From assembly GCF_900176465.1 (NCBI RefSeq), contig NZ_FWXR01000031.1, positions 1 to 37,617 of the forward strand: DNA of 37,617 nt, given 5' to 3'. The notes under the pieces were generated by a model that searched no databases, had not been told where the DNA came from, and saw only the letters and a program-made list of their open reading frames with translations. Within the stretch, counting starts at the first letter, position 1. Each line of letters opens with the position of its first letter. Shown here in pieces: positions 1,548-11,800 of the stretch. The translations under genes were made by a program, and so were the position numbers. This stretch comes from Fulvimarina manganoxydans. GTDB lineage: Bacteria; Pseudomonadota; Alphaproteobacteria; Rhizobiales; Rhizobiaceae.

Positions 1548-1574
1548 GTAAAACGGTTTAGTAAACCGCTTTAC
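1548..1574. promoter_or_regulatory. Tandem LacI-type operators upstream of the LacI-family gene
   Basis: Two imperfect even-length palindromes lie side by side: TAAAACGGTTTA (1549-1560) and TAAACCGCTTTA (1562-1573). Each has the central CG step typical of LacI/GalR operators, and their centres are 13 bp apart. Together they also form a perfect odd palindrome, CGGTTTA-G-TAAACCG, at 1554-1568. The site ends 50 bases before the regulator start codon, so autoregulation and control of the downstream ABC operon are likely. That the local LacI protein binds here is inference. Confidence 0.6.
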
Positions 1575-1623
1575 GGGTCGGTCGCCAAGCTGGCGGCTGT
1601 GGCTGGAAATCTGCGGGAGGCCC

Positions 1624-2685
1624 ATGACTGTTGGTCCGAAGCGAGTTGCCAATCTGCGGGACGTGGCGAAGGCTGCGGGCGTTTCCGTCGCAACCGTCTC
1701 TCGGCATCTGAACCGCTCGCTTTTCCTCCCTGAGGCCACGGTGACGCGGATCGAGGCTGCGATCGACAATCTGGGTTATCGGCCCAACCCCCATGCAAGG
1801 CGCCTGAGTCTCGGGCGTTCCGACACGATCGGTCTGGTGATCCCCGACATCGCCAATCCTTTCTTTGCGACGCTTGCCGCCGCGGTCGAAGAAGAGGCCG
1901 ATGCACGCGGGCTCGGTGTCGCATTGCGTTCGAGCCTCAACCGGCCGGGGCGCGAGTTGAAATATCTCGACCAGCTGCGGCACAACGAGGTCGACGGGCT
2001 GATCTTCGTCACCAACCATATCGACGAAAGCGGGGCGCTCGCTGCCGAAATCAACCGCGTGGAGCGTGTGGTCGTGCTCGATGAGGACGTTCCCGGCGTG
2101 GAGGTGCCCAAGATCTTCTGCGACAATGAGAGCGCCGGGCAGCTTGCCGCTGAGGCCTTTCTCACTGCCGGACATCGTCATGTGGGCTTTGTCGGCAGTG
2201 ATGCCGCGATGATCTCGACCTTTGGGCGGCTCGGCGGCTTCGCGCGTCGGATCCATGATGGCGGCAGCCAGATCTCCTTCGTCTGTCATGGGGACTACAC
2301 CCGCGCCTTTGGTCGCCAGGCGGCATTGCAATTCATCGAACGGGGCATGCCCGCAACGGCGCTTTTCGCAGCCTCCGACGAGCTCGCGCTCGGCCTTCTC
2401 GAAGTCTTTCGAGAGGCCACGATCACCATTCCGGGCGAGCTTTCCCTCATCGGCTTCGACGATACCGGTCCGCTCCATCTCCTCGATCCGCCGCTGACGA
2501 CGATCCGTCAGCCGGTGCGCGAGATCGGGCGGCGCGGCGTCGAGCTTCTGGCATCGCTCGACAAGCGCCTGGACGAGGCCCCTTCGCCTGAATTCCTGCC
2601 TGTCGAAATCGTCCATCGCGCCTCCGTCCAGCCGCCGACGGAGAGAGCGCGCGAACGCGCGGCGGCCATTCGCGGAAGGAACTGA
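1624..2685 (+). CDS. LacI-family transcriptional regulator
   Basis: This 353-residue DNA-binding regulator has a LacI helix-turn-helix at residues 7-30 (VANLRDVAKAAGVSVATVSR), the hinge region near 45-60, and a periplasmic-binding-like effector domain containing IGLVIPDIANPFF and GFDD. LacI proteins usually repress sugar catabolic genes until the cognate sugar binds. GGGAGG lies a few bases before the ATG. The stop codon is one base from the ATG of the binding-protein gene, so regulator and transporter are probably cotranscribed. Tandem operators at 1548-1574 lie just upstream. The effector is unknown and is most likely the imported compound or its phosphorylated product. Confidence 0.93.
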   Translation: MTVGPKRVANLRDVAKAAGVSVATVSRHLNRSLFLPEATVTRIEAAIDNLGYRPNPHARRLSLGRSDTIGLVIPDIANPFFATLAAAVEEEADARGLGVALRSSLNRPGRELKYLDQLRHNEVDGLIFVTNHIDESGALAAEINRVERVVVLDEDVPGVEVPKIFCDNESAGQLAAEAFLTAGHRHVGFVGSDAAMISTFGRLGGFARRIHDGGSQISFVCHGDYTRAFGRQAALQFIERGMPATALFAASDELALGLLEVFREATITIPGELSLIGFDDTGPLHLLDPPLTTIRQPVREIGRRGVELLASLDKRLDEAPSPEFLPVEIVHRASVQPPTERARERAAAIRGRN

Positions 2686-2686
2686 C

Positions 2687-3643
2687 ATGCTGCATAGCCT
2701 CAAGAGACGAAGCGTCCTCGCCATGGCGGGCGGAGCCCTTCTGGCCTCGACCATGTTTGCCCCGGCTTTCGCGCAGGACGCCGATAAGCCCACCTATGCG
2801 ATGATCCAGATCAACCAGCAGGCGCTGTTCTTTAATCAGATGATCGAGGGCGCTCAGAAGGCCGCCGATGAAGCCGGCGCCAATCTCGTCGTCTTCAATG
2901 CCAATGACGATCCTGCCCGTCAGAACGACGCGATCGAGACCTATATCCAGCAAGGCGTCGACGGCATGATCGTCGTCGCCATAGATGTCAACGGCATCAT
3001 GCCGGCGGTCGAGGCGGCGGACGAAGCCGGAATCCCCGTGGTCGCGGTCGACGCGATCCTGCCCGACGGGCCGCAAAAGGCGCAGATCGGCGTCGACAAT
3101 GCCGCAGCCGGCGCGATGATCGGCGAGGACTTCAAGACATGGGTCGCGGACCATGGCGGCTCGGCGAAGCTCGGCATCGTCGGCGCGCTCAATTCCTACA
3201 TTCAGAATGTGCGCCAGGAAGGCTTCGAGAAGAGCCTCGAAGGCGTCGAGGGGATCGAGACGGTGGGCGTGGTCGACGGCCGCAACATTCAGGATGAGGC
3301 ATTGTCGGCGGCCGAGAATCTAATCACCGCCAATCCGGATCTGTCGGCCATCTACGCCACCGGCGAGCCGGCGCTGGTCGGCTCGATCGCCGCTGTCGAA
3401 AGCCAGGGCAAGCAGGATCAGATCAAGATCTTCGGCTGGGACCTGACGGCCCAGGTGATCGACGGGATCGATGAGGGCTTCGTCCAGGCCGTGGTGCAGC
3501 AGGACCCGGCGGGAATGGGTGCCGCGGCGGTCGCGGCGCTCGAGACCTTGCGCAAGGGCGGGACGGTCGAGGCGACGATCTCCGTGCCGGTCGAGATCGT
3601 GACGAAGGCCAATGTCGATCCCTATCGCGAGACCTTCAAGTGA
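2687..3643 (+). CDS. ABC transporter periplasmic sugar-binding protein (RbsB-like)
   Basis: This 318-residue solute-binding protein captures a sugar or sugar-like ligand in the periplasm for the adjacent ABC importer. The N-terminus carries basic residues KRR, a hydrophobic stretch and an AFAQ/D cleavage site; the RR pair leaves Tat export possible. The mature part is a type I periplasmic-binding domain of the ribose/galactose class, with DGMIVVAID, IPVVAVD and the late GWD motif. Its stop overlaps the GTG start of the ATPase gene (GTGA), indicating translational coupling. The family and CUT2-type gene order argue for a monosaccharide or nucleoside-like ligand, but the actual substrate is not visible. 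Confidence 0.9.
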   Translation: MLHSLKRRSVLAMAGGALLASTMFAPAFAQDADKPTYAMIQINQQALFFNQMIEGAQKAADEAGANLVVFNANDDPARQNDAIETYIQQGVDGMIVVAIDVNGIMPAVEAADEAGIPVVAVDAILPDGPQKAQIGVDNAAAGAMIGEDFKTWVADHGGSAKLGIVGALNSYIQNVRQEGFEKSLEGVEGIETVGVVDGRNIQDEALSAAENLITANPDLSAIYATGEPALVGSIAAVESQGKQDQIKIFGWDLTAQVIDGIDEGFVQAVVQQDPAGMGAAAVAALETLRKGGTVEATISVPVEIVTKANVDPYRETFK

Positions 3644-4452
3644 TCGCTGGCGCCAACACCAAGACGGAGACCGGCTCGTCCGGTCTCCAGCCACACGCCG
3701 GCAAGATCGCGGCCGGCGCTCGCCCGCGCGTCTCGATGCGCGGTATCGTCAAGACCTTCGGCTCGGTCGAGGCACTGCGCGGCGTCGATCTCGATCTTTA
3801 TCCGGGCGAATGTCTGGGGCTCGTCGGCGACAATGCCGCCGGCAAGTCGACGCTCACCAAGATCCTCTCCGGCACCTATATCCCCGATGGCGGGACGCTC
3901 GAGATCGATGGTGAGGATGTCCGGCTGACCGGACCATCCGACGCTCGCGCGCGACATATCGAGATGGTGTTCCAGGACTTGAGTCTCTGCGACACGATCG
4001 ACGTGGCCGGCAATCTGTTCCTCGGCCGCGAAATCATCAAGAACGGTTTTCTCGATAAGCGAGCCATGGCCGAGAAGGCCAAGGAGATGCTGGCCGCGCT
4101 CGATATCCGCATCCCCAATCTGTCGGCCAAGGTCGCCCAACTCTCCGGGGGCCAGCGCCAGGCGATCGCGATCGCGCGCGCCGCGTCCTTTCAGCCCCAG
4201 GTGCTGATCATGGACGAGCCGACCTCGGCCCTCGCGGTGGCGGAAGTGGAAGCGGTTCTCGCGCTGATCGAACGGGTCAAGGTGACCGGCGTATCGGTCG
4301 TCCTGATCACCCATCGCCTGCAGGATCTGTTCCGGGTCTGCGACCGCATCGCGGTCATGTACGAGGGCACCAAGGTCGCCGAGCGGCAGGTCCAGGAGAC
4401 GAACCTGGAAGACCTCGTCCGGCTGATCGTCGGCGACGAGAGCGTAAGATGA
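3640..4452 (+). CDS. Sugar ABC transporter ATP-binding protein
   Basis: This 270-residue protein is a single-domain ATPase that powers the importer, unlike the double-domain RbsA/MglA form, and resembles FrcA-type subunits. It shows Walker A GDNAAGKST with Lys69, the Q-loop in MVFQDLSL, the signature LSGGQRQ at 168-174, Walker B LIMDEPT with Asp192-Glu193, and the switch His225. The usual GDNGAGKST has Ala in place of the first Gly, which is unlikely to matter. GTG at 3640 overlaps the previous stop by four bases. The first 30 residues before VSMRGIVKTFG are not conserved, so a start at the internal ATG near 3736 is possible. Confidence 0.9.
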   Translation: MIAGANTKTETGSSGLQPHAGKIAAGARPRVSMRGIVKTFGSVEALRGVDLDLYPGECLGLVGDNAAGKSTLTKILSGTYIPDGGTLEIDGEDVRLTGPSDARARHIEMVFQDLSLCDTIDVAGNLFLGREIIKNGFLDKRAMAEKAKEMLAALDIRIPNLSAKVAQLSGGQRQAIAIARAASFQPQVLIMDEPTSALAVAEVEAVLALIERVKVTGVSVVLITHRLQDLFRVCDRIAVMYEGTKVAERQVQETNLEDLVRLIVGDESVR

Positions 4453-4462
4453 GGAATTCGAC

Positions 4463-5464
4463 ATGACGCTCTATACCGAACGCGGTCAGGGATCGGCGAT
4501 CGAGGACTTTCTGGCAGAACACGCGCAGGTTCTGTCGATTGCGGGTTTCTTCCTGGTCTGCATCCTGTTCTTCGCCACGATGACGGACACGTTCTTGACG
4601 GGTGGCAATATCCTCAATCTTTTGCGTCAGGCGGCGCCGATCCTGATCGTGGCGAGCGCCATGACCTTCGTGATCACCACGGCGGGGATCGATCTGTCGG
4701 TCGGCTCGCAGGTCGCGCTGGTCAACGCGCTGGCGGCGATCGCGATCGCGGCAGGCATTCCCTGGCCGTTGGTGATCCTCATGATGCTCGCCGCCGGCGC
4801 CATGATCGGCCTCGCGCAAGGCTGGTTCATCGCCCATCAGGAGATTCCGGCCTTCATCGTGACGCTGGCCGGGCTTTCGATCTTTCGGGGCATCGCGCTG
4901 CTTCTGACCAAGGGCTATTCGATCCCGATCCGCGATGCGGACGGCTTCACCTTTCTTGGGCGCGGTGCCGTTGCCGGGATTCCGATCCCCGCGATCTTGA
5001 GCGTCCTCGTCGCGATCATCGCTTATGTGGTGCTCGATCGGATGCGCTACGGGCGGCAGGTCGTCGCCGTCGGCGCCAACCGGGAAGCGGCGCGACGCGT
5101 CGGCATGCCGGCGCGCTGGGTTACCGCCTCGGTCTATGGATTAACGGGCCTTGCCTCGGCCTTCGCCGGCCTTCTGATCGCCGCGCGTCTTGGCTCCGGC
5201 TCCTCCAACGCGGCCGTCGGCTTCGAACTCGATGTGATCGCCGCTGTCGTTCTGGGCGGCACCTCGCTGATGGGCGGACGCGGCACGATCATCGGCACCG
5301 TGCTCGGGACGCTCACCATCGCCGCGATCGGCAATGGGCTGATCCTGATGCATGTCTCGCCCTTCTTCACCCAGATCGTCACGGGCGCGATCATCCTCGC
5401 CGCCATCTGGCTGAACACACGCATCTTCGCGTCTGGGCTCAGGCTCGGGCGCAAGAAGAGTTGA
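4463..5464 (+). CDS. Sugar ABC transporter permease (RbsC-like)
   Basis: This 333-residue inner-membrane permease of the branched-chain/ribose type (BPD_transp_2) probably forms a homodimer with the neighbouring ATPase. Eight to ten hydrophobic helices are visible, with the family hallmarks GIDLSVGS near residue 74, PAFIVTLAG near 130, and the cytoplasmic coupling region YAVGxNREAARRVGM-like around 205-215. GAGGAA precedes the ATG by a proper distance. The gene follows the ATPase by ten bases, and its stop lies within the ribosome-binding site of the next gene, so the three transporter genes and the hydrolase form one transcription unit. Confidence 0.92.
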   Translation: MTLYTERGQGSAIEDFLAEHAQVLSIAGFFLVCILFFATMTDTFLTGGNILNLLRQAAPILIVASAMTFVITTAGIDLSVGSQVALVNALAAIAIAAGIPWPLVILMMLAAGAMIGLAQGWFIAHQEIPAFIVTLAGLSIFRGIALLLTKGYSIPIRDADGFTFLGRGAVAGIPIPAILSVLVAIIAYVVLDRMRYGRQVVAVGANREAARRVGMPARWVTASVYGLTGLASAFAGLLIAARLGSGSSNAAVGFELDVIAAVVLGGTSLMGGRGTIIGTVLGTLTIAAIGNGLILMHVSPFFTQIVTGAIILAAIWLNTRIFASGLRLGRKKS

Positions 5465-5473
5465 GGAGGAGAG

Positions 5474-6556
5474 ATGACCTCTCACGACACTTCGAGCGAG
5501 CGATCCGAGGCCCATACGGGCTCGGGCCAGGTGATGACGGTGAACGGCCCGATCCCGGTCGCGGCGTTGGGCGTCACCTTGATGCACGAGCATATTCTCA
5601 ACGACTGCTCCTGTTGGTGGAACAAGCCGGAAGAGCCCGAGCGGCTGCATCTCGCCACGGAGCCGGTCCATATCGGCATTCTCGGTGAACTGCGGATGGA
5701 TCCCTTCGTCAATCTCCACAATTGCGCGCTGGACGACGAGCTGCTGGCGATCGCGGAGCTTTCCCGGTTCGCCGGGCTTGGCGGACGCACGGTCGTCGAT
5801 CCCACCTGCCGGGGCATCGGGCGCAATCCGAAAGCCCTGCGGCGCATCGCCAAGGCGACCGGCCTCAACATCGTGATGGGCGCAGGATATTATCTCCAGT
5901 CTTCGCATCCTGAAGAGTTGGCCAGGCTTTCGATCGACGGGGTCGCCGACCAGATCGTCACAGAGGCCAAGACCGGCGTCGACGGGACGGATGCCAAGAT
6001 CGGCTTGATCGGGGAGATCGGCGTCTCTGCCGATTTTACACCAGACGAGGAGAAGAGCCTGCGCGGTGCGGTCCGTGCCCAGGCTCGGACAGGGCTTCCT
6101 CTGATGGTGCATCTGCCCGGCTGGTTCCGGCTCGCCGACAAGATCCTCGACATCGTCGAGGAGGAAGGCGGCGATGTGGCCCAGACCGTTCTGTGCCACA
6201 TGAACCCTTCCCATGGCGATTTCGCCTATCAGGATGCCCTCGCCAAGCGCGGCGCCTTCCTGGAATACGACATGATCGGCATGGATTTCTGGTATGACGA
6301 TCAGAAGGTCCAATGCCCCTCCGACGACGACAACGCGGCCGCCATCATGCGGCTGATCGAGGCCGGCCATCTCGGCCGACTTCTTCTGTCGCAGGACGTC
6401 TTTCTGAAGATGATGCTCACCCGCTATGGCGGTCTCGGCTATGACCACGTCCTGCGCAATTTCGTACCGCGGCTGAAGCGCTTCGGCGCCGATGACGCGA
6501 TGATCGAGGCGCTGATGGTCGCCAATCCGCGATCGGTTTTTCACGCAGCCGCCTGA
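5474..6556 (+). CDS. Phosphotriesterase-family amidohydrolase
   Basis: This 360-residue TIM-barrel metal hydrolase of the phosphotriesterase (PTE/PHP) branch of the amidohydrolase superfamily has the expected two-metal ligands: His38 and His40 (MHEH), His213, His242 and Asp308. The metal-bridging position holds Glu181 (GEIG) instead of a carbamylated lysine, as in the E. coli PHP-like branch. Such enzymes hydrolyse lactones, esters or phosphoesters; this one is unlikely to be a pesticide phosphotriesterase. AGGAGG directly precedes the ATG and overlaps the permease stop. Its place in the transporter operon suggests it opens or hydrolyses the imported compound. Confidence 0.88.
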   Translation: MTSHDTSSERSEAHTGSGQVMTVNGPIPVAALGVTLMHEHILNDCSCWWNKPEEPERLHLATEPVHIGILGELRMDPFVNLHNCALDDELLAIAELSRFAGLGGRTVVDPTCRGIGRNPKALRRIAKATGLNIVMGAGYYLQSSHPEELARLSIDGVADQIVTEAKTGVDGTDAKIGLIGEIGVSADFTPDEEKSLRGAVRAQARTGLPLMVHLPGWFRLADKILDIVEEEGGDVAQTVLCHMNPSHGDFAYQDALAKRGAFLEYDMIGMDFWYDDQKVQCPSDDDNAAAIMRLIEAGHLGRLLLSQDVFLKMMLTRYGGLGYDHVLRNFVPRLKRFGADDAMIEALMVANPRSVFHAAA

Positions 6557-6578
6557 AGATCCCCTGAAAGGATTCCCG

Positions 6579-7343
6579 ATGACGAAACGAGTTCTTCTCG
6601 TCGGCGAGAGCTGGATCAGTTCCGCCACCCATTACAAAGGCTTCGACCAGTTCGGCAGCGTCACCTTCCATCTCGGCGCCGAGCCGCTGGTGAAGGCGCT
6701 GAAAGGGACGGAGTTCGACCTCACTTACATGCCGGCCCATGAGGCGGTCGATCGGTTTCCCTACGACATGGCGGGGCTTTCGACCTATGACGCGATCATT
6801 CTGTCGGATATCGGCGCCAACTCGCTGCTCCTGCCGCCCAAGGTCTGGCTCGAAATGCAGACCGTGCCGAACCGGCTGAAGCTCATCCGCGACTGGACAC
6901 TCGAAGGCGGCGGCCTCCTGATGTGCGGTGGCTATTTCTCCTTTCAGGGGATCGACGGCAAGGCACGCTGGCGGCGCACGCCTGTGGAGGACGTGCTTCC
7001 CGTCACATGCCTGCCCTATGACGACCGGATCGAAATCCCCGAAGGCGCCCAAGGCGTGAAGACCCGGCCGGATCATTCCCTGCTGGAAGGGCTGGACGGC
7101 GACTGGCCGCTGCTTCTCGGCGCGAACGAGGTGGTGGCGAAAGAGGGCGCCGAGATCGTCGCGAGGCTTCCCGACGACGAGGGCGGTCACCCGCTGCTGG
7201 TCTGCGGTGAATATGGCAAGGGGCGCAGCGTCGCCTGGACCTCGGATATCGGCCCCCATTGGCTGTCCCCGGCCTTCTGTGAATGGGCCGGCTATCAGCG
7301 GCTCTGGACCAATATTCTCGGCTGGCTGACACGCGCGCGATGA
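6579..7343 (+). CDS. Glutamine amidotransferase-like protein (PF07090-type)
   Basis: This 254-residue protein has a flavodoxin/class I amidotransferase-like fold, matching the putative glutamine amidotransferase family with ThuA-like relatives. It starts TKRVLLVGESW, then has AIILSDIG near residue 70, a nucleophile-elbow-like segment GGLLMCGGYFSFQG with Cys116, and the late motif YGKGRSVAWTSDIGPHW. Whether Cys116 is catalytic is unclear, since the canonical GxCxG is not present and no glutaminase partner is nearby. The gene follows the hydrolase by 22 bases with an AAGG-type ribosome site, so it belongs to the same operon. Its reaction is unknown; members often sit beside sugar ABC genes. Confidence 0.75.
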   Translation: MTKRVLLVGESWISSATHYKGFDQFGSVTFHLGAEPLVKALKGTEFDLTYMPAHEAVDRFPYDMAGLSTYDAIILSDIGANSLLLPPKVWLEMQTVPNRLKLIRDWTLEGGGLLMCGGYFSFQGIDGKARWRRTPVEDVLPVTCLPYDDRIEIPEGAQGVKTRPDHSLLEGLDGDWPLLLGANEVVAKEGAEIVARLPDDEGGHPLLVCGEYGKGRSVAWTSDIGPHWLSPAFCEWAGYQRLWTNILGWLTRAR

Positions 7344-7387
7344 GCTTCGAACGGCCTTCACCAATGCGCGCGGATCGCCTGGCGGGA

Positions 7388-8299
7388 TCAGGCGCAGCTT
7401 GCCGCCGCGTCGAGGATCTCCGCAATCTCCGCGCGGGTCGGGAAGGCCGGTCGGCAGCCGAGGCGGCCGATGGTGAGCGCCGCACCGCGTGCCGCCGCCG
7501 TCAGGCATGGGATGTCGAATTCCTTGCGGCGCAGGCGCGCCGCAAGCAGCATGGCGGCAAAACTGTCCCCCGCGCCCGTCGTGTCGACGACCGTGGCGGG
7601 GGCGGGCGCGGCCTCCAGCGTTTCGCCATCATGGCGGAAAAGGACGCAGCCTTTGTCGCCGAGGGTCACAACCGCGTTGCGCGCGCCCGTCTCGACGATC
7701 GCCCGCGCGGCTACCTGGCGCGATTGTCCGGTGAAAGCCTCGGCCTCGCTCTCATTGACAATGACGAGTTCGCAATTACCGAAGAGCGCTTCGAAGCCGG
7801 GTTTGATCGGAGATGGATTGAAGGCGGTGGCCAGTCCTTTCTCGCGGGCGATCGCGATCGCGGTGCCGGTCGCCGCGATGGTGAGATTGCCTTGAAGAAC
7901 CAGCCAGTCGCCGCACCGGCTGGAGCCGAGTGCCTCGATCACCGCCGCCTCGTCGATCGTCTCGACGGCGCTCGTGGTCGTCACCAGGCAATTCTCGCCG
8001 CCTGGAAGCGAGAAGATGACCGAAATGTCGCTGGCGACGTCGCGCAGGAGGACATCGCCGGTTTCGCAGCCTTCGGCCGTGAGCATCTTCAGAATGTCGG
8101 CCCCCCGCTCATCACGGCCGCACGCGCTGACGAAGCGCACGGGGCACCCGGCGCGGGTCAGGACCACGGCCTGATTGGCGGCCTTGCCACCCAGATCGCG
8201 CATGAGCGAACGACCGAGGATGGATTCTCCCGGCATAGGAAGCGCCTCGATGGCGAAGGTTTCGTCGATGCCGACGTTGCCGATGACGTGAACAACCAT
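7388..8299 (-). CDS. PfkB-family carbohydrate kinase (ribokinase-like)
   Basis: This 303-residue cytosolic kinase phosphorylates a sugar or nucleoside with ATP. PfkB signature 1 is seen as LGGKAANQA near residue 35, and signature 2 as DTTGAGDSFAA near 240-250 with the catalytic Asp in GAGD. The ATG at 8299 is preferred; a TTG at 8323 would add eight residues but overlap the divergent start of the next gene. It lies on the strand opposite to the genes before and after it, 44 bases from the convergent stop and only 23 bases from the divergent ATG. The likely role is phosphorylation of the sugar moiety released by the hydrolase, inferred from context. Confidence 0.92.
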   Translation of the reverse strand: MVVHVIGNVGIDETFAIEALPMPGESILGRSLMRDLGGKAANQAVVLTRAGCPVRFVSACGRDERGADILKMLTAEGCETGDVLLRDVASDISVIFSLPGGENCLVTTTSAVETIDEAAVIEALGSSRCGDWLVLQGNLTIAATGTAIAIAREKGLATAFNPSPIKPGFEALFGNCELVIVNESEAEAFTGQSRQVAARAIVETGARNAVVTLGDKGCVLFRHDGETLEAAPAPATVVDTTGAGDSFAAMLLAARLRRKEFDIPCLTAAARGAALTIGRLGCRPAFPTRAEIAEILDAAASCA

Positions 8300-8322
8300 G
8301 AAAATCTCGAAAAGGCAAAACA

Positions 8323-9165
8323 ATGCCCCCAGTCTCTAAAGAAAAAAATACAACAGTCAAAGAAATTTTTAAGAAAAACAAAGTTCTGATTGGCGTCATT
8401 CACTGCACGCCTTTCCCAGGATCGCCGCAATATGCGGGCGAGCTTGTCACGGCCATCTATGACCGGGCGATGCGGGATGCCGAAGCTTATATCGAAGGCG
8501 GGCTCGACGGACTCATCATCGAAAACCATGGCGACATCCCGTTTCTGAAACCCGACGAGATCGGCCATGAGACGGCGGCCTATATGTCGGTGATCACCGA
8601 CCGCGTTCGCCGCGAATTCTCCGTGCCTTTGGGGATCAATGTTCTTGCCAATGCGGCAATCCCGGCCCTGGCGGTGGCAAGCGCCGGCGGGGCGGATTTC
8701 ATTCGCGTCAATCAATGGGCGAACGCCTATGTGGCCAATGAAGGCTTCGTGGAAGGCGCCGCCGCCAAGGCGCTGCGCTATCGCGCGGCCCTTCGAGCGA
8801 ACGGCATCAAGGTCTTCGCTGACAGTCACGTCAAGCATGGCAGCCACGCCATCGTGGCCGATCGCTCCATCGTCGAGCTCACCCGCGACGTCGCCTTCTT
8901 CGACGCCGATGCGGTGATCGCGACTGGACACCGGACGGGCGATGCAGCGACCGTGGAAGAGATCGACGAGATCCGTTCGGCGACCGACCTGCCAATCCTG
9001 GTGGGCAGCGGCGCGACGCCGGACAACATCGCCCGCATTCTCGGCCAGACGGAAGGCGTCATCGTGGCGAGCGCGCTAAAGGAGGGCGGCGTTTGGTGGA
9101 ACCCGGTCGAACAGACCCGGGTCGAACGCTTCGTCGCCGCCGCCGATGAAGCCCGCGGGAGCTGA
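8323..9165 (+). CDS. BtpA/SgcQ-family TIM-barrel protein
   Basis: This 280-residue protein matches the BtpA family, whose members include cyanobacterial BtpA (implicated in photosystem I biogenesis) and E. coli SgcQ of a sugar operon. Family segments are VLIGVIHCTPFPGSP near the start, GGLDGLIIENHGDIPF, LGINVLANAA, ADFIRVNQW, and the phosphate-binding-like LVGSGATPDNI. In sugar clusters such proteins are expected to act on a phosphorylated sugar, but the chemistry is unproven. The first 22 residues are lysine-rich and encoded by unusually AT-rich DNA (about 8330-8390), which may ease translation initiation. It is followed by the TenA-like gene nine bases later. Confidence 0.88.
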   Translation: MPPVSKEKNTTVKEIFKKNKVLIGVIHCTPFPGSPQYAGELVTAIYDRAMRDAEAYIEGGLDGLIIENHGDIPFLKPDEIGHETAAYMSVITDRVRREFSVPLGINVLANAAIPALAVASAGGADFIRVNQWANAYVANEGFVEGAAAKALRYRAALRANGIKVFADSHVKHGSHAIVADRSIVELTRDVAFFDADAVIATGHRTGDAATVEEIDEIRSATDLPILVGSGATPDNIARILGQTEGVIVASALKEGGVWWNPVEQTRVERFVAAADEARGS

Positions 9166-9174
9166 GATCGGACG

Positions 9175-9831
9175 ATGACAGCGAACGCTTCAAGCGCCTT
9201 CTCCGACCGCCTCGTGAGCGAGAACCAGACGGTCTGGGATGCCATGCAGACCCATCGCTTCGTCGAGGAGCTCGCGAGCGGCACGATGCCGGAGCAGGCC
9301 TTTCACCGCTATCTCGTCTATGAGGGCGCCTTCGTCGCCACGGCCGTGCGCATCTTCTCGCTGGCCTTGGCCAAGGCGCCGACCATCGAGGATCAGCGCT
9401 GGCTTCACGGGGTGGTCGGCGCCCTCCTCACCGAGCAGCTTGCCTATTTCGAGCGGGCCTATCGCGACCTCGGTGTCGATCCGGCCGCCTTCGATCGAAC
9501 GGCGCCGGGCTTTACGGCCTTTGACAGGGGCATGCTGACAATCGCGGAGACCGGCGGGTTTTCAGACATCGTCACCGCCATGTTCTGCGCCGAATGGATG
9601 TATCTCAATTGGTGTCGCGCGGCCCTTGCCCGAATGGAGGGCCAGGGGTTTCCGCGCGAATGGGTGGCGCTCCACGTCGCCCCCGGTTTCGAGGCTCAGG
9701 CCGTGTGGCTGAAGAGCCGTATCGACGCGCTGGCCGGCGAGATGGATCAGAGCGAGCGCCAGCGGCTCACCGTTCTCTTCGGCAAGGTGGTCGAACTCGA
9801 AATCGCCTTCCATACGGCGGCGTTTGGCTAA
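9175..9831 (+). CDS. TenA/thiaminase-II-like protein
   Basis: This 218-residue all-helical protein of the TenA/PQQC-like family is near the usual length. Bacillus TenA hydrolyses aminopyrimidines through a catalytic cysteine; here Cys138 in MFCAEWMY falls at the corresponding place, and a late Glu in ELEIAFHTAAF matches the conserved C-terminal glutamate. Early segments HRFVEEL and YLVYEGAFV fit the family's substrate pocket helices. GGAG precedes the ATG. The association with a PfkB kinase, BtpA protein and sugar transporter rather than thiamine genes suggests hydrolysis of a C-N bond in a different substrate, which is inference. Confidence 0.85.
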   Translation: MTANASSAFSDRLVSENQTVWDAMQTHRFVEELASGTMPEQAFHRYLVYEGAFVATAVRIFSLALAKAPTIEDQRWLHGVVGALLTEQLAYFERAYRDLGVDPAAFDRTAPGFTAFDRGMLTIAETGGFSDIVTAMFCAEWMYLNWCRAALARMEGQGFPREWVALHVAPGFEAQAVWLKSRIDALAGEMDQSERQRLTVLFGKVVELEIAFHTAAFG

Positions 9832-9844
9832 ACGGCGGACGGCG

Positions 9845-9894
9845 TCAGTTCGTCAGATCGACCCGGAACCGATACCGGTCCGCGCGATAGGTGG
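9845..9894 (-). pseudogene. GntR-family (UTRA) regulator, C-terminal fragment cut by IS3
   Basis: Read on the minus strand, the bases up to the IS boundary encode TTYRADRYRFRVDLTN and a TGA stop. This is the typical end of the UTRA effector domain in HutC/PhnF-type GntR regulators. The rest of the gene is missing: the sequence on the far side of the IS element belongs to a different gene. The fragment ends 13 bases after the convergent TenA-like gene, so an intact regulator would have been a second candidate controller of this catabolic module. The call rests on about 16 residues. Confidence 0.55.
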
Positions 9895-9923
9895 TGTGGA
9901 CTTGCTTCGTGAAAGTGGAGAGC
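9895..9923 (+). repeat. Left terminal inverted repeat of the IS3 element
   Basis: The 29 bases beginning TGTGGACTTGCTTCG match the reverse complement of 11100-11128 without mismatch. TG is the usual 5' terminus in IS3-family elements. Confidence 0.9.
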
Positions 9924-9949
9924 TCTTCTAAGAGAAAGAGGAGCATTTC

Positions 9950-10381
9950 ATGGGCGGATCACATCGTCGGTTCGGCAAGGTATTCGAAGCGGAGGCCATC
10001 CGTTTCGTCGAGACGAGCGGACGTTCGCAGAAGGAAATTGCCGACGATCTCGGGATCGGTCGGTCGACCCTGCGAATCTGGCTGATGAAACATCGAGAAC
10101 GGGAACTCGAAGCGCCGCCTCCGGACCGCCAGGAGGACTTGGCTGCCGAACTGAAGCGGCTACGGCGTGGGAATGAGATCTTGCGCCAGGAACGAGAGAT
10201 CCTGAAGCGGGCGACAACTTTTTTCGCCAAAGAGGGAAGTCGATCAAGTTCGAACTCATCGATGCGGCGACGAAGGATTTCCCCGTCCAGCGCCTCTGCA
10301 AGGTTCTCGATGTCAGCCCAAGCGGCTATTTTGCCTGGAGGGCCCGTCCGGTTTTTCGCCGGCAGCGCGATGACCTGGTGA
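9950..10381 (+). CDS. IS3-family transposase OrfA
   Basis: This 143-residue reading has a helix-turn-helix of the HTH_Tnp_1 type (FVETSGRSQKEIADDLGIGRSTLRIW) followed by a leucine-zipper-like coiled coil (residues 60-90, LKRLRRGNEILRQEREILKRA). This is the DNA-binding half of an IS3-group transposase. A heptamer TTTTTTC at 10219-10225 sits in the correct phase for a -1 programmed frameshift into the orfB frame. Beyond about residue 95 the zero frame runs through orfB DNA and is probably not functional protein. AGAGGAG precedes the ATG. Confidence 0.85.
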   Translation: MGGSHRRFGKVFEAEAIRFVETSGRSQKEIADDLGIGRSTLRIWLMKHRERELEAPPPDRQEDLAAELKRLRRGNEILRQEREILKRATTFFAKEGSRSSSNSSMRRRRISPSSASARFSMSAQAAILPGGPVRFFAGSAMTW

Positions 10382-11089
10382 TGCTGGCGCACATCCGTTC
10401 GGCGTTCGCTATGTCGAACGAGACTTATGGCAGTCCACGAATTGCGAGCCGACGGCCATAAGGTCGGTCGCCGTCGCATCGCGCGTCTGATGCGTGAAAA
10501 CGGAATGAAGGCGCGGCAGAAGCGACGCTTCAAACGCACGACCGACAGCCATCACGCGTTTCCAATCGCTCCGAACCTCCTTGATCAGGACTTCACCGCC
10601 ACCGGCCCGAACCAGAAGTGGGGCGACGACATCTCCTATATCTGGACCCGGGAGGGTTGGTTGTACCTTGCTGTCGCAATCGATCTCTTCGCCCGACGTG
10701 TCGTGGGCTGGGCGACAAGCGATCGGCTGAAGAAGGACCTGGCTCTGTCGGCGCTTCGCCGAGCCATCGCCGTTTTACGCCCGCCCGCCGGGCTGATCCA
10801 TCACGCCAATCGCGGCTCGCAATATTGTTCCCTCGAGTACCAGGCCCTGTTGCGAAAGCATGGAATCCTGATCTCGATGTCCGGCAAGGGAAACTGCACC
10901 GATAATTCCATGGTCGAGAGCTTCTTCAAGCCCCTGAAATCCGAACTCGTCTGGCGCACCGTTTTCCAGACCCGAACCGAGGCGACCACCGCGATCGGTC
11001 AATATATCGACGGTTTCTACAATCTCGTCCGGCGCCATTCGGCGCTCGACTTCGTCAGCTCGCTTCAATTCGAGAGGCAGGCCGCCTAA
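10237..11089 (+). pseudogene. IS3-family transposase OrfB, frameshifted and catalytically dead
   Basis: The orfB frame starts around KSIKFELIDAATKDFPVQRLC and runs to NETYGSPRIASRRP before a stop near 10460. Homology resumes in another frame at VHELRADGHKVGRRRIARLM and continues to 11089. A short deletion, plausibly between AGTCC direct repeats, explains the break. The integrase core keeps the first Asp (WGDDISYIW) and the Glu (NSMVESFFKPLK), but the second catalytic Asp of the usual HSDRGSQYCS is Asn (HHANRGSQYCS, codon 10808-10810). The enzyme is therefore doubly inactivated. Confidence 0.88.
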
Positions 11090-11099
11090 AACCAAAAAC

Positions 11100-11128
11100 G
11101 CTCTCCACTTTCACGAAGCAAGTCCACA
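11100..11128 (-). repeat. Right terminal inverted repeat of the IS3 element
   Basis: These 29 bases, ending AAGCAAGTCCACA, are the exact reverse complement of the left repeat at 9895-9923. Confidence 0.9.
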
Positions 11129-11318
11129 TGTGAACGAGCACGGTCTCGTCATGCTGGAAGGCCAGGGCATGTATCTTCTCGGGGACGACTGGCACGAGGT
11201 CTGGCAGGACGACTTCATCTGGATGGGCCCCTATTGCCCGCAGCTCTTCTATCCGACCGGCTGGGGTCCTTCGGCCTATCTTCTTTATAAAGACGTCAAT
11301 CGTGACGTCGTCTTCTGA
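11129..11318 (+). pseudogene. allE: Ureidoglycine aminohydrolase (cupin) C-terminal fragment
   Basis: The 62 residues after the IS boundary read NEHGLVMLEGQGMYLLGDDW, then DDFIWMGPYCPQ and AYLLYKDVNRD before TGA. This is the C-terminal cupin barrel of (S)-ureidoglycine aminohydrolase (AllE/UGlyAH), which releases ammonia from ureidoglycine in allantoin breakdown. The N-terminal cupin is missing, removed at the IS junction. The stop overlaps the GTG start of the next remnant by 17 bases, as in an intact ureide operon. The function is lost here. Confidence 0.8.
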
Positions 11319-11640
11319 GCGCGAGGCGCTGGATCGACGCGCCGCGACGCTGATGGCTCGGATCGACGAACTTGCGACTTTCAGCGAAGAGGCCGATTGC
11401 CTGATCCGGCGCTTCTTGACCGAAGAGCTGGTCGCCGCGAACACCCGGACCGCCGAATGGATGGTGGCGGCCGGAATGACGACGCGCGTCGATGCCGTGA
11501 GCAATCTTTTCGGCCGATCTGAAAGCGATCCGCCGGGCTGACGGGCGCTGCTTCTGGGTTCCCATCTCGATACTGTCCGCAATGCCGGACGTTTCGACGG
11601 GCCGCTGGGTGTGCTCGCGGCGATCTCGGTGGTGCAATTG
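11302..11640 (+). pseudogene. allC: Allantoate amidohydrolase-like M20 peptidase, broken N-terminus
   Basis: From GTG at 11302 the reading gives MARIDELATFSEEADCLIRRF, AEWMVAAGM and DAVSNLFGR, the N-terminus of allantoate amidohydrolase/beta-ureidopropionase-type Zn hydrolases. A TGA at 11539-11541 interrupts the frame. Homology continues in the same frame with [20 protein letters not shown] and [12 protein letters not shown], including the first metal-binding His and Asp, then ends at about 11640. The gene therefore has a nonsense mutation and loss of about three quarters of its length. With the allE fragment it is the remains of a ureide operon. Confidence 0.8.
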
Positions 11641-11800
11641 AGCCTTACAGGGCCGTGCCTTCGCTCGGCGCAGAGCCGGTGCTTGGCAGGGCGCCGTCTG
11701 CCGTCGATCGCCGTGCCGCGGACCGGGCCCGATTCAGATGACACCGCTCCAATTCTTTAGCCGGCCTGCGCTTTCGGGAACTCACGACGAATTTCGGTCC

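Follow-up and report, generated by a model that had tools for sequence, protein, structure and literature searches.

The DNA considered here, hereafter the window, is the whole of contig C36 (37,617 bases) of the alphaproteobacterium Fulvimarina manganoxydans, whose genome comprises 4.82 Mb in 54 contigs. Nine genes spanning positions 1624–9831 encode a LacI-family regulator (LacI), a periplasmic substrate-binding protein (SBP), an ABC ATPase, a permease, a PTE-family hydrolase (PTE), a GATase1-like protein (GAT), a PfkB-type kinase (PfkB), a BtpA-family protein (BtpA) and a TenA-like protein (TenA), typed from their open reading frames (ORFs) by Pfam and NCBIfam profiles (Table 1). The original prediction for this DNA, made from the letters alone, had named these families and regarded them as an uncharacterised catabolic module; the profiles confirmed every one of them, and the gene set proved to be conserved and inherited together. 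In this report, we describe the module and discuss its possible role in the breakdown of N-ribosylated ureides, in which BtpA may take the part played elsewhere by the uracil-catabolic protein Urc4. The kinase gene, on the minus strand, is arranged head to head with btpA, from whose start its ATG is 24 bases away, while its listed TTG start directly abuts it. Since the kinase is thus opposed, transcription of btpA and tenA must either cross it in antisense or begin within it. An SDR gene upstream was also considered as a member of the module, and was rejected; an SDR of 29–32% identity precedes LacI in some copies (e.g., L117 and L140; L and G numbers denote loci and genomes).

Table 1. Features of the module and of its 3' flank in the window.
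Feature	Position	Strand	Basis
LacI-family regulator	1624–2685	+	Pfam LacI and Peripla_BP_3
Periplasmic substrate-binding protein (SBP), ribose-binding-like	2687–3643	+	Peripla_BP_4; best PDB match 5hsg, E 1.3e-111
Single-domain ABC ATPase of CUT2-like importer, GTG start	3640–4452	+	One ABC_tran stretch; aligns with RbsA 5–240 of 501
Importer permease	4463–5464	+	BPD_transp_2; ribose permease PRK09512 225.4 bits, below cut-off 398
PTE-family metal-dependent hydrolase	5474–6556	+	PF02126; relative of 3k2g
GATase1_like protein, possibly a hydrolase	6579–7343	+	PF07090; relatives 3soz, 2gk3
PfkB/ribokinase-like kinase (TTG 8323 / ATG 8299)	7388–8323	-	PF00294; best PDB match 3i3y
BtpA/SgcQ-family TIM barrel (predicted)	8323–9165	+	TIGR00259 229.8 bits, above cut-off 153.4; AlphaFold2 model
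TenA-like protein lacking the catalytic Cys	9175–9831	+	PF03070; model TM 0.89 to 1rtw
IS3-type element 3' of tenA	9895–11128	+	Perfect terminal inverted repeats of at least 20 bases; HTH_Tnp_1 and rve ORFs
Remnant, (S)-ureidoglycine aminohydrolase C-terminus	11129–11318	+	tblastn 79% over 70 amino acids; TIGR03214 E 3.3e-32 at 11124–11309
Remnant, decayed N-terminal part of M20 allantoate amidohydrolase-like gene, internal stop	11359–11658	+	tblastn 39% over 103 amino acids to M20b of L037

The presence of each gene elsewhere was scored by tblastn, at identity thresholds that we set, in fetched neighbourhoods of 8.7–21 kb, and because some of these loci finish at contig ends, absences are upper bounds. 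An SBP-anchored sample, the named loci, holds the best 80 of 417 SBP relatives, and divergent copies are consequently under-sampled. The original prediction had proposed to look for co-occurrence of the families, and this was borne out, in that PTE, ATPase and permease were found in all 80 named loci, GAT in 78, PfkB in 77, LacI in 76, BtpA in 73, TenA in 54 and an M20 carbamoylase (M20a) in 29. The count for PfkB leaves out L150, a BtpA-less copy in which a LacI helix-turn-helix is fused to a PfkB domain in one protein of 385 amino acids (8810–9967), encoded in front of the SBP gene. PfkB stood on the strand opposite to SBP in 57 of the 77 loci. TenA and M20a are accessory members, TenA alone being present in 36 named loci, both in 18, M20a alone in 11 and neither in 15. 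A second sample was anchored on BtpA, matches to which were found in 66 of 297 genomes of the order; 19 genomes, our own included, had one of at least 61% identity, 14 copies showed 46–58%, and many about 30%. The 33 matches of at least 46% comprise the window and 32 fetched loci, and eight of the distant ones were also fetched. Around the 18 close BtpA genes (at least 60%, window excluded) lay PTE and PfkB in 17 cases each, SBP in 16, GAT in 14, TenA and M20a in nine each, and an XRE/cupin regulator in eight. PTE, GAT and TenA were each found, at the thresholds used, in none of the 14 intermediate and none of the eight distant loci; a GAT of 43% identity lies near BtpA in L050. The two samples partly overlap, as L032 and L120 look like one contig. 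Minimal BtpA copies consist of transporter, PTE, GAT, PfkB and BtpA (e.g., L117 and L140). Taken together, the gene set is almost certainly a real, conserved module. As to its distribution, PTE matches at E 1e-85 or better occurred in 25 of 297 genomes of the order and in one of 385 genomes of a class sample, that one being our own, and searches with BtpA and SBP gave matches in two of 197 Enterobacterales. Some copies are plasmid-borne, such as those of R. johnstonii 3841 (pRL9, RL_RS26965–26925) and Pantoea dispersa. Two genomes (G099 and G278) carry a second BtpA, 48% identical to that of the window, with a PfkB and a transporter of its own, about 12 kb from the module BtpA on the same contig (L056 9556–10398; L057 9522–10367). 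The original prediction knew of no characterised pathway with this set, and in agreement with this, no paper on it was recognised in a full-text search of open papers; the R. leguminosarum passages retrieved deal with genes other than these, no old locus tags having been established for the operon.

One variation concerns the gene that follows PfkB. In L113, L114 and L137, from Taklimakanibacter, Aestuariivirga and Rhizobiales bacterium Y(2018), this gene encodes a DUF1688 protein (PF07958) instead of BtpA. A search of 69 genomes of the family of L114 gave five PTE-positive genomes, all with DUF1688 after PfkB, and thereby two further loci, L229 and L230. The protein of L114 scores 444 bits, and the other four were assigned by homology; homologues of BtpA, TenA, M20a and M20b were not found by tblastn in any of the five loci. 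Their transporter, PTE and GAT are 63–75% identical to those of the window, and their PfkB 33–37%. DUF1688 is the family of urg3, which according to PMC2174524 shares a gene cluster with urg1, of the GTP cyclohydrolase II family, and with the uracil phosphoribosyltransferase-like urg2, and urg3 is described as an orthologue of URC4 in a passage of PMC3869809. URC4 degrades ribosylurea to urea, according to a passage in a metabolic-model paper which itself cites others (PMC7530994). Among 20 other DUF1688 loci (19 from the order sample and one from the genome of L150; one Urc1-like protein and one uracil phosphoribosyltransferase (UPRT) typed), a Urc1-like GTP cyclohydrolase II gene lay nearby in 17 and UPRT in 16, as in the fungal locus. 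In a maximum-likelihood tree of 41 DUF1688 proteins, the five module copies form one clade (100/97) among the others; the module has thus acquired a Urc4, on one occasion as far as seen. The gene after PfkB is the sole difference between the minimal BtpA copies and the DUF1688 copies, so that a functional exchange of Urc4 and BtpA would be the simplest reading. DUF1688 is absent from the genome of the window. In L214, L220, L221 and L222, a ribokinase-like gene is found in the vicinity of DUF1688 and UPRT, in L221 beside pyrimidine-phosphorylase-type and adenosine-deaminase-family genes, so that Urc4 has a PfkB as its partner outside the module as well.

Besides scoring above the BtpA/SgcQ family model, the window's BtpA falls below the equivalog for photosystem I biogenesis (NF045918, 212.7 against 400), and phmmer against the PDB found no close relative, tryptophan synthase alpha being weakly similar over the C-terminal part. 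Its AlphaFold2 model (pLDDT 89.9) has among its top folds TrpA, ribulose-phosphate epimerase, thiamin phosphate synthase, HisA and orotidine monophosphate (OMP) decarboxylase, as well as one entry titled only "variants". The named neighbours are, as we take it, barrels binding phosphorylated ligands, and BtpA is accordingly predicted to be a TIM barrel of the phosphate-binding type. N68, D71, R128, R152, R154 and K253 are its invariant polar residues in 47 aligned rows reaching down to about 30% identity. Of the 14 intermediate loci, 12 have a PfkB-type gene no more than three genes away from BtpA, by similarity or motif (three typed), and all eight distant ones have a sugar kinase, PfkB or FGGY, at that range (three typed); several of the latter also carry M42 peptidase-family genes (two typed). 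Sugar kinases therefore adjoin BtpA outside the module as well, which fits an action of BtpA on the kinase product. Since Urc4 can occupy its place, BtpA is the best fit for glycosidic cleavage, and we tentatively consider it, at somewhat less than even probability, an enzyme cleaving N-glycosidic bonds.

A further link to ureides comes from the 3' side. In L037, L039 and L044 the module continues past TenA with genes for a hydantoinase, RidA, ureidoglycine aminohydrolase and allantoate amidohydrolase. In L037 the D-hydantoinase scores 506.8 in TIGR02033 (cut-off 393.25), the (S)-ureidoglycine aminohydrolase 308.8 in TIGR03214 (cut-off 200) and the allantoate amidohydrolase 485.7 (cut-off 479); RidA is below its NCBIfam cut-off and above that of Pfam PF01042. 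In the window, tenA is followed by an insertion sequence (IS) which we take to be of the IS3 family. Directly 3' of it stands the end (62 codons) of a ureidoglycine aminohydrolase gene, whose tblastn match to the gene of L037 (79% over 70 residues) begins at 11106 within the IS end, and then comes a decayed M20 fragment with a stop. As the remnants lie behind the IS in the order of L037, the window's module probably once carried the ureide extension, and insertion with deletion probably removed the hydantoinase gene, the RidA gene and most of the cupin gene. The same genome has a different ureidoglycine aminohydrolase-like gene on contig C48 (37% to that of L037), and an M20 gene with a hydantoinase-like gene on C25. 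The accessory M20a resembles allantoate amidohydrolases and carbamoylases (PRK09290.1-5, 405.5 against 399; TIGR01879, 411.7 against 204).

The original prediction of a CUT2-type sugar importer stands as far as a CUT2-like transporter for a sugar-like ligand is concerned, and needs correction in one respect: the ATPase, of 270 amino acids, has a single ABC domain, which makes it a half-size component of a CUT2-like importer. The best PDB match of the SBP, 5hsg, is presumably a Klebsiella protein. Aligned with the ribose-binding protein chain 2gx6 at positions we take to be ribose contacts, the SBP keeps D122, R176, D252, Q272, F48 and F49, and has A46, A123, N200 and G226 in place of the others, a pocket which may suit a ribosyl ligand bearing a substituent. 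The kinase belongs to the PfkB family and has the catalytic Asp, the last residue of DTTGAGD (D253, counted from the TTG start), in 82 of 82 aligned rows; it falls short of the ribokinase equivalog TIGR02152 (173.8 against 299.65). A simple ribose or autoinducer-2 operon was considered and rejected, as no NCBIfam equivalog was reached at cut-off for SBP, ATPase (best 25 of 188 matches compared), permease or kinase.

PTE and GAT are further members of the set. In PTE, H38, H40, E181, H213, H242 and D308, which we take to be the binuclear metal ligand set, are invariant in all 94 aligned rows. Lactone opening by PTE may be possible, and its match to the phospho-furanose lactonase model is weak (47.3 bits, cut-off 630); the family also holds an amidase, PTER, according to a published passage. 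GAT was called amidotransferase-like in the original prediction, a term that holds only as a family name (PF07090): at the elbow position, as placed by what we take to be the canonical motif, it has Tyr119 in GGYFSFQG in 90 of 90 rows instead of the nucleophilic Cys of class I glutamine amidotransferases. A glutaminase role was rejected for this lack of the elbow Cys. C144 is as invariant as Y119, and the protein is possibly a hydrolase. PF07090-type genes were also seen in other settings. On the Ti plasmid pTiA47a (L162, 7004–14584), one annotated as glutamine amidotransferase lies near genes for hydantoinase/oxoprolinase, an SIS protein and fructoselysine 6-kinase; in Shinella (L160, 847–10665), nitrilase, Zn-dependent hydrolase and M24 peptidase genes accompany one, and a RuBisCO-like large-subunit protein and a four-carbon acid sugar kinase are encoded close by; and a Klebsiella plasmid has a similar amidotransferase–nitrilase–M24 set.

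The structure prediction proposed earlier for TenA and BtpA upheld the folds of both, TenA being modelled with a pLDDT of 96.2; the catalytic Cys of TenA failed to appear in the alignment. By profile alignment to H. pylori TenA, whose Cys we take to be catalytic, the position of B. subtilis Cys135 is occupied by Ala139 in 61 of 61 rows. Cys138 of the window protein, one residue off, occurs in a single row, and E50, E140, E209 and H213 are invariant. The score of 62.8 bits lies below the cut-off of 130 for salvage_TenA (thiaminase II). Thiamin-type salvage was thus rejected as a role for the module, the Cys of TenA being missing and TenA itself optional. As judged from its alignment, the window's TenA is of a Cys-less type by the definition quoted in a passage of PMC10277260; Cys-less TenA proteins (TenA_E) exist, and the Arabidopsis one is reported to prefer a formylaminopyrimidine. 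TenA is unlikely to be the bond-breaker, since 26 of the 80 named loci lack it and every aligned row shows Ala where the Cys would be expected.

The gene set and its co-inheritance, the occurrence of DUF1688 at the place of BtpA in five relatives, the barrel fold predicted for BtpA and the association with ureide enzymes lead us to infer the following steps. The substrate would resemble a nucleoside, with a base that is, or turns into, a ring of the hydantoin, allantoin or dihydropyrimidine type. LacI would sense it, and the CUT2-like importer would take it up. PTE and GAT would open and trim the heterocycle, aided in many genomes by TenA, the M20 carbamoylase or the hydantoinase set. PfkB would phosphorylate the ribosyl 5-OH, and BtpA (or Urc4) would hydrolyse the N-glycosidic bond of a phosphoribosyl-urea-type intermediate, releasing urea or a ureido acid together with ribose-5-phosphate. 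Both the Urc4 exchange and the ureide enzymes favour a nitrogenous, N-glycosidic substrate, as the original prediction had already suspected. We regard an N-ribosyl ureide as the substrate class with evenly balanced confidence, and import and degradation of such a compound by this very mechanism as slightly less assured than that. Several observations weigh against this proposal. The ureide extension is confined to three of the 18 BtpA-centred loci and to the window's remnants; the 80 named loci offer no example of it, and the three loci that carry it intact are without GAT. Because the module-linked DUF1688 proteins form a single clade, the exchange may be one event in one family. The distribution among the 25 PTE-positive genomes of the order in itself favours an exchange, DUF1688 occurring in five of the six without a close BtpA and in five of the 19 with one (Fisher P 0.023); however, the test ignores kinship, two of these six (G058 and G247) carry a BtpA of 27–29% identity, and G203 has neither a close BtpA nor DUF1688. 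The seven BtpA-less named copies, three of them from genomes in the same test, have DUF1688 in the module in three cases, elsewhere in the genome in three, and not at all in one.

The same substrate class could be handled in another order, BtpA or Urc4 cleaving the glycosidic bond at the outset and PTE, GAT, TenA, M20 and the hydantoinase set acting later on the freed base. In favour of this, the appended enzymes are typical of free ureides, and M20a resembles allantoate amidohydrolase or carbamoylase with scores above cut-off. However, PTE and GAT are retained even in minimal copies devoid of other hydrolases, and ribosylurea, on which Urc4 acts, is a late product of the yeast pathway as summarised in a passage of PMC7530994; cleavage at the outset is considered unlikely. 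A quite improbable variant holds that DUF1688 marks a version of the module with another substrate and replaces nothing. The module-linked DUF1688 was seen in one family only, as this would require, but it takes the place after PfkB one for one, and the transporter, PTE and GAT of these copies remain close to those of the window in spite of their divergent PfkB.

Catabolism of a rare sugar or sugar lactone would dispense with nitrogen altogether: PTE would open the lactone, PfkB would phosphorylate, BtpA would isomerise or cleave the phosphosugar, and TenA and M20 would be incidental. LacI, the CUT2-like importer and the ribokinase-like kinase would all suit this, and so would the weak lactonase match of PTE and the epimerases and isomerases among the fold neighbours of BtpA. 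The BtpA-less L115 also has an enolase-superfamily gene (4766–5851; talarate/galactarate dehydratase-like, below cut-off) after GAT, in a copy that lacks PfkB as well and in a genome without DUF1688. Nevertheless, a sugar-lactone pathway leaves the DUF1688 gene at the place of BtpA, the carbamoylase and the ureide genes unexplained, and we judge it improbable. The original prediction itself had placed at the end a cleavage of a nitrogenous, aminopyrimidine-like aglycone by TenA. The well-supported TenA fold and the existence of Cys-less TenA_E proteins speak for this, and yet the absence of TenA from nine of the 18 BtpA-centred loci as well as from 26 of the 80 named ones, together with the unvarying Ala139, makes it very improbable.

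For the orphan BtpA/SgcQ family, which owes its name to a cyanobacterial phenotype, the proposal offers a substrate class and a reaction that can be tested; it also gives PF07090 a context and suggests that rhizobia may have a pathway for ribosylated ureides. If degradation of an N-ribosyl ureide is the role of the module, Urc4 and BtpA would be interchangeable solutions to one reaction, and the fate of part of the modified and oxidised nucleoside pool in soil would be explained. A wider reading, which is rather unlikely, is that BtpA/SgcQ proteins in general hydrolyse the N-glycosidic bond of sugar ureides or amides phosphorylated by a kinase, as a non-homologous counterpart of Urc4. The module would then serve the salvage of damaged or reduced nucleosides, e.g., dihydrouridine and urate, allantoin or hydantoin ribosides; we know of no pathway for these.

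Several known systems resemble the module in part. It shares with allantoin and ureide catabolism ureidoglycine aminohydrolase and allantoate amidohydrolase, which survive as remnants in the window and are complete in L037, L039 and L044; its core differs in having a sugar importer, a sugar kinase and BtpA, all three of which are, to our knowledge, missing from free-ureide pathways. In the sgc operon of E. coli, sgcQ presumably encodes the BtpA homologue, beside a sugar-phosphorylating system and an M42-type amidase, and a pairing of BtpA with a sugar-phosphorylating system and an M42-type gene also occurs in L066. The sgc operon differs by uptake through a phosphotransferase system and is not known to have PTE, GAT or TenA; we know of no substrate assigned to it. 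Pseudouridine catabolism employs a PfkB-type kinase, PsuK, and a glycosidase, PsuG. The proposed pathway would follow the same logic, phosphorylating the ribose of a nucleoside and then splitting the base from ribose-5-phosphate, whereas BtpA belongs to another Pfam family than PsuG, and the Pfam and NCBIfam scans reported no PsuG-type domain in the module proteins. The remaining relative is the URC pathway of uracil catabolism (Urc1, UPRT and Urc4/DUF1688), familiar from Lachancea kluyveri and also conserved among bacteria. The module differs from it by its own importer, kinase, PTE and GAT proteins; DUF1688 is missing from the window's genome, and no homologue of Urc1 or UPRT was found at E 1e-10 in loci L032–L152 and L154. 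The two are nevertheless alike in that DUF1688 stands at the place of BtpA in five module copies, and in that both would pass through a ribosylurea-type intermediate.

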